Origin: Paramacrobiotus metropolitanus
Taxonomy: Eukaryota > Tardigrada > Eutardigrada > Parachela > Macrobiotidae
Direction: 5' to 3'
Assembly: GCF_019649055.1 (NCBI RefSeq)
Contig: NW_026570231.1
Coordinates: forward strand, 186,001 to 250,000
DNA length: 64,000 nt
Made by a program: the position numbers and the translations under genes. Each line of letters opens with the position of its first letter. Positions within the stretch are counted from its first letter, which is position 1. Of the stretch, positions 5,491 through 63,400 are shown in pieces. The notes under the pieces were generated by a model. That model searched no databases, had not been told where the DNA came from, and saw nothing but the letters and a program-made list of their open reading frames with translations.

Positions 5491-8400
5491 TTCGAGCGGT
5501 GGAACTGCTGGTGTGCCAGAAATTTGGCGAAGATGCATGGGAAAGAATGAAGTAAGTTGTAATAAAAAAATCAACTACGAGTAGCTAGAATTAGCGCTCA
5601 CACACTGCGCTCTTGTAGTTTCGCTCTGCATACGAAAAAAAGATATATTTGTATGTATGTAGGTGTCATCAACAACAAACTTATTTGACTATGAATGCGA
5701 TAAGTTTAAAATTTGTGCGTTTTCTGTTTTCCCCAGTTGACGTGTTTTACCTTCATTTAAAAGATTGTATCTAGAGTGTCTGTGGCGAATAACTAATTAT
5801 AGTATTAGTATGAAAATCGCGCATTGATGTTAACTACGAGTAGCATGCTTTAGCAAGTGACCATCTATGTATTCTTTAGTACGTATGTCGTATACGTATA
5901 TCGTATTTTACAGAGTGGCAGCGGGACTAAAAATTTCCGGAAATTTTCTTGTGACCGAATATTATTCGGACATCGTTACGTACAGGTACAGCGCGATCAT
6001 TATCAGTTGTAAACTTCTACAAATATTATAATTATAGCATGATAAATATACCTTTGCGTGTTATGGTAGATTATGTACGCATGATCACTAAAAGAATAGG
6101 GCGCACGAACACGCAAGTACTGTATTGTACAGAATGTATTCTTGTGTTATGCATCTTCAGCCAGTGCATCGAATTGTTCAGCATTATGGTAATTATGAAA
6201 TGATTTCAGACTAGTGGATGCTGCAGAGGAGATTTTAGGTAAGAAAGTTTTAAGTCAAAGCTCAGCCCTGTTAAGAAAAACTAGTGAAAAGCATGGTTTA
6301 TAATGACATTTCACTTTTAGTATATTTCAGTATAACAACATGTATAAAATGTTTGCAATATCGTTTATTCTGTATTATTATATATATGTAGCTATATTAA
6401 AGCTTTGGATACCTTCACAACGTTAAATACGTAACTTTCAGTAAGAGTTAGAAACACACCTATCGATTTACATATTATTAAAGTAAGTACACATGATCTA
6501 CTGTATAATTAAAATCTGCCCTTGTATAGGCGTTTCATCCGAGCAGTTTTGGGAAGTTCTGGGGGAATATTTCTTCGACTACGTTGTCGAATATGGCTAC
6601 AGCCGCTTATTGTCCGTCCTTGGCGGTAAGTTCAAGCAAGTGCGCTGCGCGTACTGACGCACAACATTTTCTTCCGTTTTCCTTTCCGGAGAGAATTGTT
6701 ATTTCCGACTGATCTGCATATGTGATGGTTCTGTGGTTAGAAACGCCAGTGGAATTTTTGGAAAATCTCGATACGCTCCATTGTGCCTTAGGAAGGGTTT
6801 ATCCCATCCGACCACCGTAAGATCCACTTGAAATTTTCTATGATAGAATGTTAATCAAGCAAATTTTTAAACAATTTTTTTTTTAATTTTTTTAATTTTT
6901 TTAATTATTTTTTAAAATTAATGGTAACCTTAAGCATCATACTCGCGGGCGATCTAATAATTTGTAAGACACATGTTTTAAATAAAAATTACCAGTGTCA
7001 GCACTGCTATACGATACATAGACATAATTTTGCCGTTTGGGTAGATTATTTCGGTGTGAGACCCGCAAAAATGGCATGTATCTGCTGCATTATTACTCCA
7101 AACGCCGCAACATGGAATATTACATGATGGGCCTGTTACGCCGCACCCTGGACGTCCTTTACAAGACAAAGATCGAGCTGGTCCTCTTGGAGAAGAATGA
7201 GCATGAAGATCACTGCACGTTTTCCATTTCCTTTAGTAAGACCGGAAGTCCCAATCCCGGGAGCATCCAGGAGGCTGTCAGTGCACCGCTGCAGCCACCT
7301 GACAGTCTTATGCCGTCAGCCCGTATTTCTCCTTCCACTTTCGCCGCACTCTGTCCATTCTACCTCATCTTCACCCGTGATCTGGTCATCAAGGAATGCG
7401 GCCGCTCCATCCTGCTGGCACTTCCGGCTCTCGTGGATGCCGCCCATCGGCTGGATCAGACAGCGCGCTTAGTGCGCCCCTGGCTGCCGCTGACGTTCAA
7501 CAACATTGTTGAGCATCAGAATTCCGTGTTTTTGTTGGATTTCGACTGTCAGACGGCGGGCGGCGTCAAAGAGCGATCACTTAAGCTGAACGGGCAAATG
7601 CTGTATCTGCCGGCTAATGACACCATGCTCTTTATATCGTCACCCTATATTACGTCATTGGAGGATCTTAGCGCCAAGGGCTATTCACTAAGCGATGTAC
7701 CGTTGCACGATGCCAAAAGGGAATTTATTTTGGCGTCGGAAAACTTTGCCCTTGAACATAAAATTATTTCCCAGCTTGAGGATTTGACACAGCGACTGCA
7801 GCAGACAACAAAACAAGTGCAGGACGAGAAAAAGAAAACCGATAAGTAAGGAACGCAAGGCCGTAATTAGCTAAATTCTTATGATTTTGAAAAATAAAAT
7901 TAATTTTTATATCGTCGCAGCAAAACAATTCACCATTGGCAGTACTGCATACTCCCACTGCATAACATAATCCAATCACATAATTGCTATATTAAATATA
8001 GCAATAAAACTAATTATTTTGAAAATTAGCATTAATGAAATGCACATGATTAGCCGATTCAAAAATCTTTAAGCACTGTACAATTCCTGGGTACAGAAAT
8101 CTACGTAGAATACAGTACTAACTATTACAACATCATAAGTCTTTCTCAACCTTACACCACTGTACTGACTGCAGGCTGCAGTAAGCATATGGGCGCGTAA
8201 AAATGGTACTAGCAATACTTAATAGTTAATGACACTTAATGTCACCAAATAATTATCCGGGTCACCAAATAATTCAACCTTGCTAAGATCTTCATTCCTG
8301 TTGCTTCAGTTTATAGCTATAAACTGAAGCAACAGGAATGAAGATCTTAGCAAGGACTGAAGTGCTCTATAGAGCACTTAATTAAGTGCTCTATAGAGCA

Positions 8401-11518: not shown

Positions 11519-13075
11519 ATGAATGTGGAGCGTGCGGAAGAATGTAAATGTTTTTTAAGGAAACGTCCCTCTATTGCGTACGAATATGCGGAGAAAACTT
11601 GGAGAAGTCGGCTAGCCGATAAACTGCGCATAAACAATCCATTGTTGCGGGGATCCGTAGCAGAATTCTTTTCCACTTTTATATTGATGGTGAGCGATTC
11701 CGCTGTTATGCTTTATTGAATACCGTACGCGCAATTACATTCTGCAGCGATTTCTTGTGCTATTGTTTTTGGAACTTCTTAAAAAAATTAACAATTTTAC
11801 CACTTCATCCACGAAATAATGACTTAGGTTTCGTCCACCTACATTAGCCCAGAAATTGTCCAGCTATATAACATGGAGCTCTAGAGTAGTAAATCTGATT
11901 TGCAGATTTTTGTTCAAGGCACAGTAGCCTCGCAAATATTCTCCGGCCAGCAACGCGATGTTTTGCTTATATCCATCGGTCAAGGAATGTCCGTAGCATT
12001 AGCGGTGTTTGTTTCCGGTGGTGTTTCCGGCGCTATGCTGAACCCCGCGGTCAACTTTGCTTTTCTTGTGGTTGGCAAAGTAACATGGCCGGTGGCCATT
12101 TTTTACTCCATTGCCGAATATATGGGAGCATTTGTCGCATCGATGGTCATATATGCCGTCAATGTCGGTAAGAGTACTTGGACCCTTTTATTGTTATACC
12201 ATGCAACCGGCTACGGGCATACGCAGATAGTCCAAAATAATTGCTTAGCACAATATTTAATGCCGTCCTTTTACTTGCATACGTGCGACCTTTCGTTTTT
12301 GCATGAATCGTGTTCGGATGACATGTTACCATATTTCAGAGAATTTCGACAAATACGACGGGGGTTTACGTTACACATACGGTCCAAACGCAACAGCAGG
12401 CGTTTTCTCAACTTTCCCCGGTGAGCAGCGTTCAGTCGGGGGAGCATTTTTTCACGAAGCGTTCTGCACTGTTACGCTCCTCGTTGGCGTCTTGGCTATT
12501 GTGGACGAGCGCAACTGGAAGCCGGAAAAGGGACTTATCCCTTTTGCCATTGGAGGGCTGATATGCTTAATAAACTTGGCATTCTCATACGGTGAAGGAA
12601 TGGCTATGAATCCAGCTCGCGATTTAGCACCTCGGCTATTCACATTGGTCACACACGGAACTGAACCATTCAGGTGCGAACTAAAGTAAAAGTATCAGAT
12701 GAAATGTTTACGAAAAACGCGATACGACTAGACTAGTCGGACTAGTCCTTATTTACTAACAATATTAATTCCCATACCTGGATTTACTTAATTTACCATG
12801 TTTGACGTATGCTGCCCAATCGCTATATCGGCTTAATAACACTGCGTGGCACGTGCGGCACCAAACTTTTTTGTTAACCGTAACTCTCTCTTAGTACGCG
12901 AAGATAAATATTGTCACAGCAAATCAGTGACAAATTGTGACCTTTTAGTTTCTGGGAATACAACTACTTTTGGATCCCCGTTGTTGGGTCACATCTTGGA
13001 GCCGTTGTAGGTGCCCTGCTGTACGTCATATTCATCGAAATCCATCATCCGCCACAAGAATACGTAAAAAAGTAA
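11519..13075 (+). CDS. Aquaglyceroporin (MIP family channel)
   Basis: Four exons, 11519-11689, 11906-12167, 12340-12673 and 12949-13075, give a 297-aa protein; the start ATG has a CACC context. This is a six-helix MIP channel of the plasma membrane passing water and small solutes such as glycerol. The first pore motif is intact in SGAMLNPAVNF (about residue 104). The second is MAMNPARDLAPRLF, where the Asp after NPAR is the hallmark of glycerol-conducting members rather than strict water channels. The N-terminus (about 45 residues, Arg/Lys-rich) is cytosolic. The extracellular loop before helix 4 carries YGPNATAG with a potential N-glycosylation site. Length matches the family. Substrate range beyond the glyceroporin class cannot be read from sequence alone. 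Confidence 0.9.

Positions 13076-20447: not shown

Positions 20448-31304
<10,857 letters not shown>

Positions 31305-46938: not shown

Positions 46939-47002
<64 letters not shown>
46939..47002. repeat. (AT)n microsatellite
   Basis: About 32 uninterrupted AT dinucleotides. Confidence 0.98.
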
Positions 47003-47008
<6 letters not shown>

Positions 47009-48044: not shown

Positions 48045-49040
48045 GATAGACAGAACTACCGCCACTGTTCAGTGCACAAGCCCGTTAGTTGACCGAAATA
48101 CCACTACATTCTGGTTAAAATAGCCCGCTAAGCCAGTGAGTGACCGAACTGCCACTATGGATAGCTATGTGAGCGGTTAACCGAGCTGTCATTACTGTCC
48201 GATGCCGAGTGACCGAGCTGTCACTACTTTTCAGTGTACAAAGCCCGTTAGGGAACGAGTGACCGAGTTACCACTACGGCCCGGTGCCCAGAGTCCAGTA
48301 GGAGAGCGGGTGATCGCGCTGTCACTAATGTCCGGCGCAGAAAGTCCGTTAGCGCAGCGGGTGACCGGGTTACCAATGCTGTCCGGCGCAAAATGCCCGT
48401 TCGGTGAAGGAGTGCTGAGCTGCCACTACTGTCCGTGCACAGATCCCGGAAATTGAGCGGTGTACTACTGCACTACTGTCCAGTGTACAAAGTCTGTTAG
48501 GTGAGCGGGTGACCGAGCTACCACATCTGTCCGGCGCAAAAAGCCCGGGTGGTGAGCGTGTCACCGAGCTGTCACTACTGTCCAGTGTACAAAGTCTGTT
48601 AGGTGAGCGGGTGACCGAGCTACCACATCTGTCCGGCGCAAAAAGCCCGGGAGGTGAGCGTGTCACCGAGCTGTCACTACTGTCCAGCTCACCTAACGGA
48701 CTTTGTACACAAAGTCCGTTAGGTGAGCGGGTGACCGAGCTGACACTGCTGTCCAGTGTACAAAGCAGGTTAGGGAACCAGTGACCGAGTTACCACTACT
48801 GCCCGGTGCAGAGACCCCGGTAGGTGAACGAGTGACCAAGCTGTCATTATTGTACAGTGTACATGAGTGACCGAGCTACCACTACTGTCCGGCGAACGGA
48901 ACCGGTTAGCTAAGCAAGTAATCGAGCCACCACATTTGACCGGACATACAGTACACCACTGCGCACATACCAACTTCCAGTGAAAAGAGCCAGTGAAGTA
49001 AGGAGTTACCGAACTAGTGATCCAGTGCACTATCACTGTT
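48045..49040. repeat. 51-bp minisatellite, about 1 kb
   Basis: Roughly 18-20 diverged copies of a unit like GTGACCGAGCTGTCACTACT-GTCC..GCGCAAAAAGCCCGTTAGGTGAGCGG. The modal unit is 51 bp, i.e. 17 codons, so long stretches stay open (48202-48456 and 48509-48784 on plus, 48370-48666 on minus). Units alternate between a TGTACAAAGTC and a GCGCAAAAAGCC type in the centre, showing a 102-bp higher-order repeat. GC-rich compared with its surroundings. Confidence 0.9.
48687..48728. repeat. Hairpin inside the minisatellite, 20-bp perfect arms
   Basis: GCTCACCTAACGGACTTTGT, 2-nt spacer, then its exact reverse complement (48709-48728). One minisatellite unit has been inverted head to head against the next. 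Confidence 0.93.
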
Positions 49041-51027: not shown

Positions 51028-51875
51028 TAGAGCCCTGCACGAGCAGCAAAAGTGCTGCTCAACTCGCTCGTTTCTGCTTTTTTAAACTTCCTGCTCGCTC
51101 AGCTCGCTCGCGCCCAAACCACCGCTCGCTCAACTCGCTCGTTTTCCAATTTTTATTTGCTTCTGCTCGCTCAACTCGCTCGTAATTTTATTTTGGTAAA
51201 TCGGCTCGCTCGTAAGATCGGCAAAAATTTACGTATCAATTTTTTTGCACGAATTAATTATACCAAACTTTTCACCAACACAAAACTCAGTACATAACTA
51301 ACATAAGTGTAATTGGATGTTCAGAGACAATCACTTATATCTCCATACTGGTAGTCCGTATCATTAGCTTTTCATTTTTTTGCTAATCCATTTCTCTAAT
51401 TTTCAACTGGATGTAGTTTTCTTAATTTGGCCTGAAATAAATACGTATAATAGAATGCTCAAAAATTAAAATGCACCTTTCTTAGGAATCATTCAACTGA
51501 TTCATAAACCCGTCAAATAATGTTTTTGTTGGCTACGAGTACAAAATATCAAAATTTAGTCGTGCGTCCCAACCGGTCTAGGAAAGTTAGTAAATAAATC
51601 AATTCGCGCGAAGCGCGAGGTGACGGTGGTTTAAGATCGTTTTCAGGTCGGTCAATGTAATTTTGTACTAGAAACTTCTCCAGTTCGCACAATGTCAGCC
51701 TGTAGGCTCGCGATCGCTCGCACCCGACCATCCCGCTCGCTCGGCTCGCTCGCAATTTTTTTCTATTGCTCAGCTCGTTCGCAAATTCGCAAAACGACGC
51801 CTGCTCGCTCGAAGTGCTCGCGAGCGCCGAGCGCTCGTGAGCCGAGCCGAGCAGCTCGGCTCGTGCAGGGCTCTA
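51028..51875. mobile_element. Non-autonomous hAT element (848 bp) with intact 8-bp TSD
   Basis: Terminal inverted repeats TAGAGCCCTGCACGAGC (51028-51044) and its exact reverse complement (51859-51875). Target duplication CCGCCGGC at 51020-51027 and 51876-51883 is perfect. Subterminal zones carry many GCTCGCTC / AACTCGCTCG units on both sides. No transposase ORF. Perfect ends and TSD imply a recent insertion. It sits about 90 bp upstream of the TATA box of the small-ORF gene. Confidence 0.93.
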
Positions 51876-51964
51876 CCGCCGGCCGACGCCATAGTACTGC
51901 TGAGTCATGGATTGTGTAATAGGCAGTGGCTTTTGCGAAATGCACGCCGAACGCCGCAATCCAG

Positions 51965-52004
51965 TATAAAAGGCGGGTCTGTCTTGTTGGCAAACCAGTC
52001 AGTC
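51965..52004 (+). promoter_or_regulatory. Core promoter: TATA box and initiator of the small-ORF gene
   Basis: TATAAAAGG at 51965-51973, followed by overlapping initiator matches CCAGTC (A at 51997) and TCAGTC (A at 52001), 32-36 bp downstream of the first T. This is correct spacing for a Pol II TATA-Inr promoter. The first ATG after it is the first small ORF at 52103, about 100 nt into the predicted transcript. Confidence 0.6.
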
Positions 52005-52102: not shown

Positions 52103-52138
52103 ATGGATCTCGATGAACGTTGGGGCATCTTTTTCTAA
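52103..52138 (+). CDS. Small ORF 1 of polycistronic peptide gene (11 aa, MDLDERWGIFF)
   Basis: First ATG of the predicted transcript, context TTAACCATGG (A at -3, G at +4). It encodes an 11-residue peptide ending WGIFF then TAA. The ending recurs in the next two ORFs with different codons (GGC ATC TTT TTC here), so the peptide, not the DNA, appears conserved. There is no signal peptide and no room for one, so if translated the product is a cytosolic micropeptide like Tal/Pri. An alternative is a set of regulatory uORFs with a C-terminal stalling motif. Translation is inferred, not shown. Confidence 0.6.
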   Translation: MDLDERWGIFF

Positions 52139-52205
52139 GTGATACTACACCAATCGCTCCTTCGTTCGAATTTACTGCTGTTTAGTCTGACTTAACGATC
52201 TGAAG

Positions 52206-52244
52206 ATGCCGATCGATCAAGAGATGTGGGGGATTTTTTTCTGA
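52206..52244 (+). CDS. Small ORF 2 of polycistronic peptide gene (12 aa, MPIDQEMWGIFF)
   Basis: Starts 67 nt after ORF 1 ends; A at -3. It ends WGIFF with codons TGG GGG ATT TTT TTC, stop TGA. It has one extra residue (Met) before the shared Trp and Pro-Ile in place of Asp-Leu; the acidic third position is kept as Asp. A different stop codon from ORFs 1 and 3 argues against a very recent tandem duplication. Confidence 0.6.
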   Translation: MPIDQEMWGIFF

Positions 52245-52277
52245 AGTTTTCACCTCCGTAAAACCAATCCGATAGAA

Positions 52278-52313
52278 ATGGACCTTGAAGAGAAGTGGGG
52301 GATTTTCTTTTAA
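52278..52313 (+). CDS. Small ORF 3 of polycistronic peptide gene (11 aa, MDLEEKWGIFF)
   Basis: Starts 33 nt after ORF 2; context AGAAATGG (G at -3, G at +4). Compared with ORF 1 it has conservative changes only (Asp to Glu, Arg to Lys), and the WGIFF tail uses TGG GGG ATT TTC TTT. The consensus of the three is M-[DP]-[LI]-[DE]-[EQ]-x-(x)-W-G-I-F-F-stop. Confidence 0.6.
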   Translation: MDLEEKWGIFF

Positions 52314-52342
52314 CCTATTCCTATAGTTACCGCACCGGAACC

Positions 52343-52471
52343 ATGCCGCATTCCGGAATCTACATAACCCTGACCAACCCCGGGCGGCCGTCGGGTCATC
52401 AGGCCGGAATAACACCACCCGGCCAATTCCCTTATTGCGAACCAGCAGCGACACCGGCATTTTTATACTAG
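52343..52471 (+). CDS. Small ORF 4 of the same transcript (42 aa)
   Basis: ATG with A at -3, 29 nt after ORF 3. It encodes 42 residues rich in Pro, Gly, Thr and Tyr (ITPPGQFPYCEP...FLY) with no WGIFF motif and no recognised domain. The stop TAG at 52469-52471 is immediately followed by GTAAGA, a strong 5' splice site, so the exon probably ends with the stop codon. In tarsal-less the short A-type ORFs are also followed by a longer unrelated ORF (B). Similarity to that ORF was not seen. Confidence 0.4.
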   Translation: MPHSGIYITLTNPGRPSGHQAGITPPGQFPYCEPAATPAFLY

Positions 52472-52586
52472 GTAAGAGTCGTTATAATCCTAAATTACGC
52501 TGCCATAATTCTTAGAAAACATAATTAACCTACCGAGAATTTACTGTAGAAATGGCGCTAATGACAGTTGTTCTGCAGGTGTGCTT

Positions 52587-52757
52587 ATGAATGACGACGT
52601 CATTTCCGACCTTTCCGCTTTTACATTCGACGATCATGCTGCCAGCCACCAACACCGGCAAACCGCACTACTGCGATCTGACCTTTGCTTTACCAAGCAA
52701 GATTTGATCGGAGTAGTCGGAAGCGGACCACCACCTGAAAGCCATGCAGCGGCGTGA
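52587..52757 (+). CDS. Possible downstream ORF in the second exon of the small-ORF gene (56 aa)
   Basis: The acceptor TTCTGCAG at 52571-52578 would follow the donor at 52472. The first ATG of the second exon (52587) opens a 56-codon frame (MNDDVISDLSAFTFDDH...). No domain is recognised. The same DNA is also open on the other strand (52690-52959), so only one of the two may be real. Confidence 0.25.
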   Translation: MNDDVISDLSAFTFDDHAASHQHRQTALLRSDLCFTKQDLIGVVGSGPPPESHAAA

Positions 52758-52959: not shown

Positions 52960-54424
52960 AAGCTAAACCAAAACGCACTAACCGCTGCTGTTGGTACTAC
53001 GCTTAATTTATTTTGCTCTGCTGGTTTTATATACTGGATGGCCGACGTTTATTTAAGTTGCAATAGTCATTGTTTTTTCTGGTTCAGCCATTCTGATGCG
53101 ATATGCGGCAATAAAAGAAACCCGTTAGATTAGCTAATTTCTGGGGAATTTCATCTGTACCATAGAAGAATATGACAAAGGTGAAAAACAAAAAAGCACA
53201 AAACAAAAAAGCAGATGGCTTGTCCAACAATAAAAGTATTAAACCTATTCTTCTGAACTTAATTTGACAGCAAAAACACACACTTTATAATATCATCAGT
53301 CAGACAAAAGTCTGAATGTTACATAATTCACACGATACCGGCATACGGCCGGGCCGATTACTTAACTTTGTAGGACAAACTAAGGCGGGTCTAAGAACAC
53401 AATCAGAGGAACCCAGCATTATGCTCGTAGTAAAGTAAACAGTACAAAACATGCCGGCAGCCAAGCAATATTCGCAGTCAATAATTTGGGATGCTAGAGG
53501 TCATCAAAAGTTTTTTAACAGTTTTTACCACTTATCAGTTATGTGAAGGGTCACTCATTCCATCGAAAAAATTTTATTTTTTCGTTAAGTACCAAAATTA
53601 CCAAAACCGTTACTAAAATTAGAAATAATTTTACATTTTTATTAGCCATACGAAAAAATTTGAGAACTTTTTCACAGACGAGATTTCCCTTTAAAACACT
53701 CCAGCGTCAGCAAATGTCGGCCATAAATGGATGTCCCGGCGCAGCGTCAACCTACCATAGTTTAGTCACCACAGGCCTCCAGCAGGGCAAAAAATCTAAT
53801 GAATTCAATAACACCTGAATTATCGGCCATGAATGAGTAAACTTCCAGTCTGAGGTGATACTTATTCTATTACTTCGCCCCGTCGCAATGCAATTTCGAA
53901 CTATTCGAATGACCTACAAAACACAGGGCTTTGACCGTCAGCACGCGTTTACCATGCAGGAATAGTCGCGGTTCACGGGGGCGACCGATGCTCGAAGAAT
54001 CCTTCTTCGGGCGGATATTGTCACCGCATTTTAGTCATCGTGACGTAAATTCTTCGCTCTATCGGCCGAACATTTACCATCTGCCGACAAGAATGCTGTC
54101 TAGACAGCTTCGACTCTAGCCACGCTTGGAATGTCCTCTACTTGTCCTAAAGTAGGAACGATAGTACCGGTACCGGCAAGACCACAGCGGACAAAAATCA
54201 AATTACAAGTTGTTAATAATAACAGTTCAGATCGTGCACTGATCGGTTTGAGCCAACTTGCTGATGCTGCATTGCCTTCAACATTCTTAAGCAAAATTAT
54301 AAACCCTGAATAGCGGTCCAATTTCAAACCCGAAAATTTTCAATATCAGGCAAACTAAATACAACAATCATAGAGTACCAAGATCAAGCCAAGCAGGAAC
54401 TATGAGAGAAGACCAACCGCGAAG
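52960..54424. other. Intergenic / 3' flank of the XMAP215 gene
   Basis: No supported gene. Reading frames at 53931-54327 on both strands have no recognised content and may be 3' UTR. Confidence 0.4.

Positions 54425-63400
<8,976 letters not shown>

Follow-up and report, generated by a model that had tools for sequence, protein, structure and literature searches.

Within the 64,000 nucleotides analysed here (the window, bases 186001-250000 of its contig in an assembly of 169.8 Mb and 533 contigs), three ATG-initiated open reading frames (ORFs) of 11, 12 and 11 codons follow one another over 211 nt of the + strand, each ending in Trp-Gly-Ile-Phe-Phe (WGIFF) and a stop codon: ORF1 at 52103..52138 (MDLDERWGIFF, stop TAA), ORF2 at 52206..52244 (MPIDQEMWGIFF, stop TGA) and ORF3 at 52278..52313 (MDLEEKWGIFF, stop TAA). 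A fourth + strand frame, ORF4, has 42 codons and no WGIFF, occupies 52343..52471 and ends in TAG next to a likely splice donor. These ORFs and their order are plain in the DNA, and the lengths, endings and the stops TAA, TGA and TAA agree with the original prediction, as do the good start contexts, the base at -3 being a purine in all four ORFs (A in ORF1, ORF2 and ORF4, G in ORF3). The third-position differences that had been reported against fixed amino acids are also there, the codons for Gly, Ile, Phe and Phe in ORF1/ORF2/ORF3 reading GGC/GGG/GGG, ATC/ATT/ATT, TTT/TTT/TTC and TTC/TTC/TTT. Ahead of this common ending, the consensus M-D-L-[DE]-E-[RK], proposed for all three peptides, describes ORF1 and ORF3 but not ORF2. 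Each of the three peptides has a net charge of about -2.5, and their masses are about 1429, 1514 and 1415 Da. ORF2 and ORF3 lie in one frame with a single TGA between them (52206-52313, +), so that readthrough would yield one peptide with two copies of WGIFF.

Six ATGs occur between position 52001 and the splice donor, and four of them start ORF1 to ORF4. The claim that no other ORF overlaps the trio has to be dropped, as one of the remaining two opens a 9-codon ORF in another frame that overlaps ORF1 (52113-52142) and the other lies in frame within ORF2. The leader (102 nt, counted from 52001) and the spacers of 67, 33 and 29 nt, 231 nt together, contain no ATG against 4.1 expected, and four random segments of the same lengths were free of ATG in 2.2% of draws (P 0.022).

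A putative TATA box (TATAAAAG, 51965..51972, +) lies 138 nt before ORF1 and is followed by an initiator-like element (CCAGTCAGT, 51995..52003, +), which would place the start of transcription at about 51997-52001, 32-36 nt past the first T of the TATA box and 102-106 nt 5' of ORF1, matching the TATA-initiator promoter predicted about 100 nt upstream. With this likely start site, the ATG of ORF1 would be the first in the mRNA. A degenerate GCTCG-rich repeat lies 5' of the promoter at 51723-51821. A second TATA-like site (ATCCAGTATATAAA) lies on the - strand at 53039-53026, and a 16-nt stretch at this site is able to pair with promoter bases 51956-51971 (88%).

At the other end of the predicted first exon, ORF4 stops exactly at a candidate splice donor, as had been noticed: its TAG is directly followed by GTAAGA, and this arrangement, together with a CTAAT branch-like site and the acceptor TTCTGCAG, makes an intron at 52472..52578 (+) likely, promoter and splice signals alike being identified here by consensus matches. 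The probable second exon holds ORF5, a 56-codon frame of uncertain status (52587..52757, +), and an AATAAA at 53110..53115 (+) may serve as a polyadenylation signal, another such sequence lying at 53229. In the predicted spliced mRNA to position 53130, the longest downstream ORF has 56 codons with either of two acceptors. Protein searches returned no homologue of ORF4 or ORF5, negatives that are uninformative for short, diverged peptides because the searches needed three shared 5-residue words; neither ORF has a Pfam match at E 0.1, and neither has a paralogue, each giving one match in the genome. The codon score of ORF4 lies near that of its shuffles (z 0.29) and that of ORF5 above (z 2.03). 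Nothing about ORF4 itself thus suggests that it codes for protein, and neither frame qualifies as a gene product. Antizyme-like frameshifting from ORF4 was considered and rejected, since ORF4 ends in TAG and since, on inspection by eye, no ATG occurs in the frame that would join the 56-codon ORF after splicing.

The window also carries neighbouring genes. To the left, on the + strand, lie a gene with HNOB/HNOBA domains, soluble guanylate cyclase like (7037-7849), an aquaporin of the MIP family (11900-12424) and an intact LRR-Ig gene (26605-28296), whose best relatives are a match at 66% identity, followed by Ramazzottius varieornatus at 49% and Hypsibius exemplaris at 47%; judged by sequence, the source organism is very probably about equally distant from these two species. 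To the right, a gene on the - strand appears to extend over about 54.5-64 kb, its frames assigned by eye. One of its exons (61376-61672, -) matches a Drosophila PDB chain, 2qk2, a TOG domain of Mini spindles, at E 1.7e-14, and a second exon has no match in PDB. Repetitive DNA occurs in several places: a minisatellite with a 51-base unit at 48209-48687, overlapped by rows with 102 and with 148 bases and open in stop-free frames along much of its length, and a perfect AT dinucleotide run of 32.5 copies at 46939-47003. In the neighbouring 20 kb to the right of the window (contig 250001-270000, loci L044 and L045), there are tandem DNA repeats with look-alike short ORFs, as well as a 249-codon frame that, by eye, looks like the terminal part of a non-LTR retroelement.

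The WGIFF trio is rare in the window and in the genome. Of 618 short + strand ORFs in the window, the members of the trio alone form pairs within 400 nt that share their last four or five residues; no such pair occurs among the 634 short ORFs of the - strand, and none arose in 40 Markov-simulated + strands. Across the 169.8 Mb of the genome, the WGIFF-stop pattern has seven matches, three of them at the locus within 193 nt, and its reversed control has none. None of the other four is an ATG ORF of up to 20 codons: two are copies of one repeat with TGG where the stop would be, one ends a 102-codon ATG frame and one has no in-frame ATG. A looser pattern, W-G-[FLIMV]-[FY]-[FY]-TRR, gave 25 genome matches against 12 for its reversed control, and a stop closes 18 of the 25. 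Fifteen of these 18 lie elsewhere than the locus; an in-frame ATG is present within 20 codons in three of the 15, and none of the 15 belongs to a tandem set. Two of those three are an identical 12-codon ORF, MIFLTRLWGLFF, on two contigs (L020, contig C14, and L024, contig C53), probably a dispersed repeat; the third, the 11-codon ORF MFASYKWGMFF (L022:1483-1518, contig C36), stands outside any tandem array and is probably due to chance. When the N-terminal half plus WG was searched with up to two mismatches, five matches were found in the genome, ORF1 and ORF3 exactly and three others with two mismatches and without WGIFF. The DNA of the locus matches the genome once, at itself, in a search that skips simple repeats, and a pattern of two WGIFF-stop copies had no match in viral and prokaryote contigs, collections not expected to contain tardigrades. 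Chance was rejected as the source of the trio on the counts in the window, the simulations and the genome-wide WGIFF-stop count, and a multicopy family or transposon on the single DNA match obtained for the locus, for ORF4 and for ORF5.

Short ORFs with identical endings can also be produced by duplicated DNA, and we compared the trio with a control set of 41 loci (140,861 bases, in which overlaps may occur), fetched for other reasons and not a random sample. Short ORFs that lie within 400 nt of each other and agree in their last five residues form eight pairs in this set. All come from the neighbouring 20 kb (L044-L045), and every pair is a DNA repeat, with ORF identities of 0.93-1.0 and both flanks scoring above 100 of 100 shuffles. 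The WGIFF pairs have ORF identities of 0.74-0.75 and flanks that align no better than shuffles, with which local alignment agrees; the closest flanks, those upstream of ORF1 and ORF2, reach a score attained by 11 of 100 shuffles. A partial exception is a 33-nt direct repeat of 79% identity, which takes in the ends of ORF2 and ORF3 and continues for 7 nt after the stop codon. Given these otherwise unrelated flanks, a simple DNA repeat was rejected.

The differences that remain between the ORFs are concentrated at silent positions. Between ORF1 and ORF3, 11 of 33 nt are different, with seven codons altered silently and two residues exchanged (D/E and R/K). When 11 changes are placed at random, two or fewer residues change in about 1e-5 of draws, and WGIFF survives four random changes in its 15 bases in about 3e-5 of draws, figures that overstate the case because the copies were chosen for being alike. 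Of the five residues between ATG and WGIFF, with its extra codon left out, ORF2 has four that differ from ORF1 and five that differ from ORF3, so that what can be said of the N-terminal half derives from ORF1 and ORF3. The silent-only differences within WGIFF, the mostly silent differences between ORF1 and ORF3, and spacers that are unrelated, unlike those of the eight control pairs, point to selection acting on the peptides, the case being built on three copies in one genome. The selection on peptide sequence claimed at the outset is in this way supported for WGIFF, and outside WGIFF by ORF1 and ORF3 only. Codon scores exceed those of base shuffles in all three ORFs (z 2.33, 1.73 and 1.37 for ORF1, ORF2 and ORF3), in a test whose training exons were picked partly by eye, but all three reverse-strand frames of each ORF outscore the forward frame. 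Codon usage therefore does not settle the strand, which the aligned starts and stops do; on reading, these align on the + strand, and coding on the opposite strand was rejected as the source of the repeat. Selection on RNA structure was likewise rejected, since the RNA of exon 1 is not unusually folded (z +1.71, with 97 of 100 shuffles folding at least as well) and Rfam, at gathering thresholds, has no match in the window.

Tarsal-less, also called polished rice (pri) or mille-pattes (mlpt), serves as the model for animal mRNAs with repeated micropeptide ORFs. In Drosophila, the gene is described as encoding three 11-residue peptides and one of 32 residues, all with LDPTGQ(T)Y (PMC3136413), and tal genes more generally as having a variable number of such ORFs and a further C-terminal peptide (PMC6124123). 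Pri is reported to be conserved across arthropods (PMC6428570), and is described from insects and crustaceans, where it acts through Ubr3 (PMC11475943). The layout of the locus resembles that of tarsal-less in Drosophila and Tribolium, with several ORFs of 10-12 residues, a common C-terminal motif and a longer ORF: ORF1 to ORF3 are consecutive, of about 10-12 codons and alike at their C-termini, and the ATG layout and splice signals fit one polycistronic mRNA, a transcript that is predicted here. The two differ in that the motif of the locus is WGIFF and that of tarsal-less LDPTGxY, in that the longer ORF of Drosophila carries the motif whereas ORF4 and ORF5 have neither WGIFF nor LDPTGxY, in that ORF4 and ORF5 lack the C-terminal consensus reported for tal genes (PMC6124123), and in that tarsal-less belongs to arthropods and the WGIFF locus to a tardigrade. 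A shortened form of that consensus had no match in the six frames of the window. A bicistronic small-ORF gene, sloth1/sloth2, also places more than one small ORF on a single animal mRNA, as predicted for the locus, but its two peptides are described as functionally non-redundant (PMC11475943), whereas the WGIFF peptides all have the same ending. In the open-licence part of PubMed Central, none of the papers containing the string WGIFF is related by its title, the one paper that has both tardigrade and mlpt concerns, to judge by its title, vertebrate and insect segmentation, and the word tardigrade was absent among the matches listed for tardigrades and small ORFs.

The absence of LDPTGxY, asserted from the locus, extends to the assembly: the motif is in none of the ORFs of the locus, and LDPTGxY-stop has no match in the genome. 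None of four genome matches to DPTGx[FY] falls in a short ATG ORF, and none of 18 matches to [LF]DP[TSC]GxY is one. A hidden LDPTGxY gene was thus not found in the assembly, in a search that would miss a motif split by an intron or a gene in a gap. Tarsal-less acts with Ubr3 on Svb; in the genome, UBR-box exons gave three matches on two contigs, which are not assigned to Ubr3. The locus is on the best reading analogous to tarsal-less, like it in layout and departing from the family in its motif, its longer ORF and its C-terminal peptide.

That the locus is instead the tardigrade orthologue of tarsal-less/mille-pattes, its LDPTGxY diverged to [LI][DE]x(2-3)WGIFF, draws on the similar succession of 11, 12 and 11 codons followed by a longer ORF, on an order of L/I, D/E and then G-x-aromatic towards the C-terminus, and on the lack of a canonical LDPTGxY gene in the genome to occupy the place. 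Of 578 ORFs in the window with 8-20 codons, the pattern [LI][DE].{1,4}G.[FY].?$ picks out only the trio, and among shuffled peptides it accepts 32 of 115600, but it was drawn after the peptides had been seen and loses ORF2 if tightened to {1,3}. The P and T of LDPTGxY are missing, one or two residues would have to be inserted, and the missing motif in ORF4 and missing tal consensus in ORF4 and ORF5 count against descent as well. As the shared pattern was made after the fact, we regard orthology as distinctly unlikely. Short upstream ORFs (uORFs) whose encoded peptide matters are also known, the MAGDIS uORF being an example, and the trio could consist of three cis-acting uORFs, the WGIFF end of each arresting the ribosome at termination and thereby regulating a downstream ORF, be it ORF4, the 56-codon ORF or a distant main ORF past a long intron. 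Invariance up to the stop codon would suit a sensor at the terminating ribosome, and more exons may follow, given the good splice donor at the end of the exon. MAGDIS-type uORFs are very short ORFs whose peptide matters to the ribosome, as might be the case at the locus; the locus differs in its three same-ended copies and in having no long main ORF in the predicted mRNA. This last point weakens the proposal, as no ORF in that mRNA exceeds 56 codons, and the right-hand neighbour gene appears to lie on the opposite strand. The acidic N-terminal part is moreover kept between ORF1 and ORF3, and three arrest uORFs with the same ending in a row would be unusual; we consider this main rival unlikely.

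That the trio results from DNA duplicated recently, or is a functionless array due to chance, would find some footing in the 33-nt stretch common to ORF2 and ORF3 and in the tandem repeats with look-alike short ORFs to the right of the window, but is highly improbable in view of the otherwise unrelated flanks, the silent-biased differences, the differing stops, the ATG-free spacers and the single DNA match in the genome. Of the two readings first offered, a micropeptide family or a set of stalling uORFs, the former is the better supported, by the signs of selection at the level of the peptide, by the single-copy locus and by the lack of any LDPTGxY short ORF in the genome. We consider it probable that the locus is a polycistronic micropeptide gene and that its three peptides have a C-terminal recognition element in common and act in trans.

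Such a micropeptide gene would be small and single-copy, and its TATA/initiator promoter would give rise to an mRNA of about 1 kb. Ribosomes would translate the three ORFs in turn, beginning at the first ATG and continuing by reinitiation or leaky scanning across the ATG-free spacers. The products set free would be three near-equivalent peptides, acidic in their N-terminal part and all closing with the invariant WGIFF. Repetition of the same ending in several ORFs may multiply the dose of one ligand. The peptides would most likely act in trans and within the cell, as none has a signal sequence by eye, the free carboxyl end of WGIFF docking on a partner protein in a manner that may be likened to the action of Pri/Tal peptides on an E3 ligase. 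A free I-F-F end would, at a guess, suit a class II PDZ pocket.

It is quite possible, and we propose it tentatively, that the gene evolved independently of tarsal-less, no LDPTGxY gene having been found, and that it is the second animal gene to encode one micropeptide ligand in several ORFs, with WGIFF as a new C-terminal pharmacophore. Peptides of eleven residues are within reach of synthesis and could serve as bait for a partner. If the locus were orthologous to tarsal-less after all, the family would be older than the arthropods and its motif replaceable. If the proposed micropeptide gene is real, it would suggest that genes made up of very short ORFs alone have been missed in tardigrade annotation; as a second gene of this kind, with an unrelated peptide and from another panarthropod phylum, the Tardigrada, it would mark the repeated-ORF layout as a recurrent solution.
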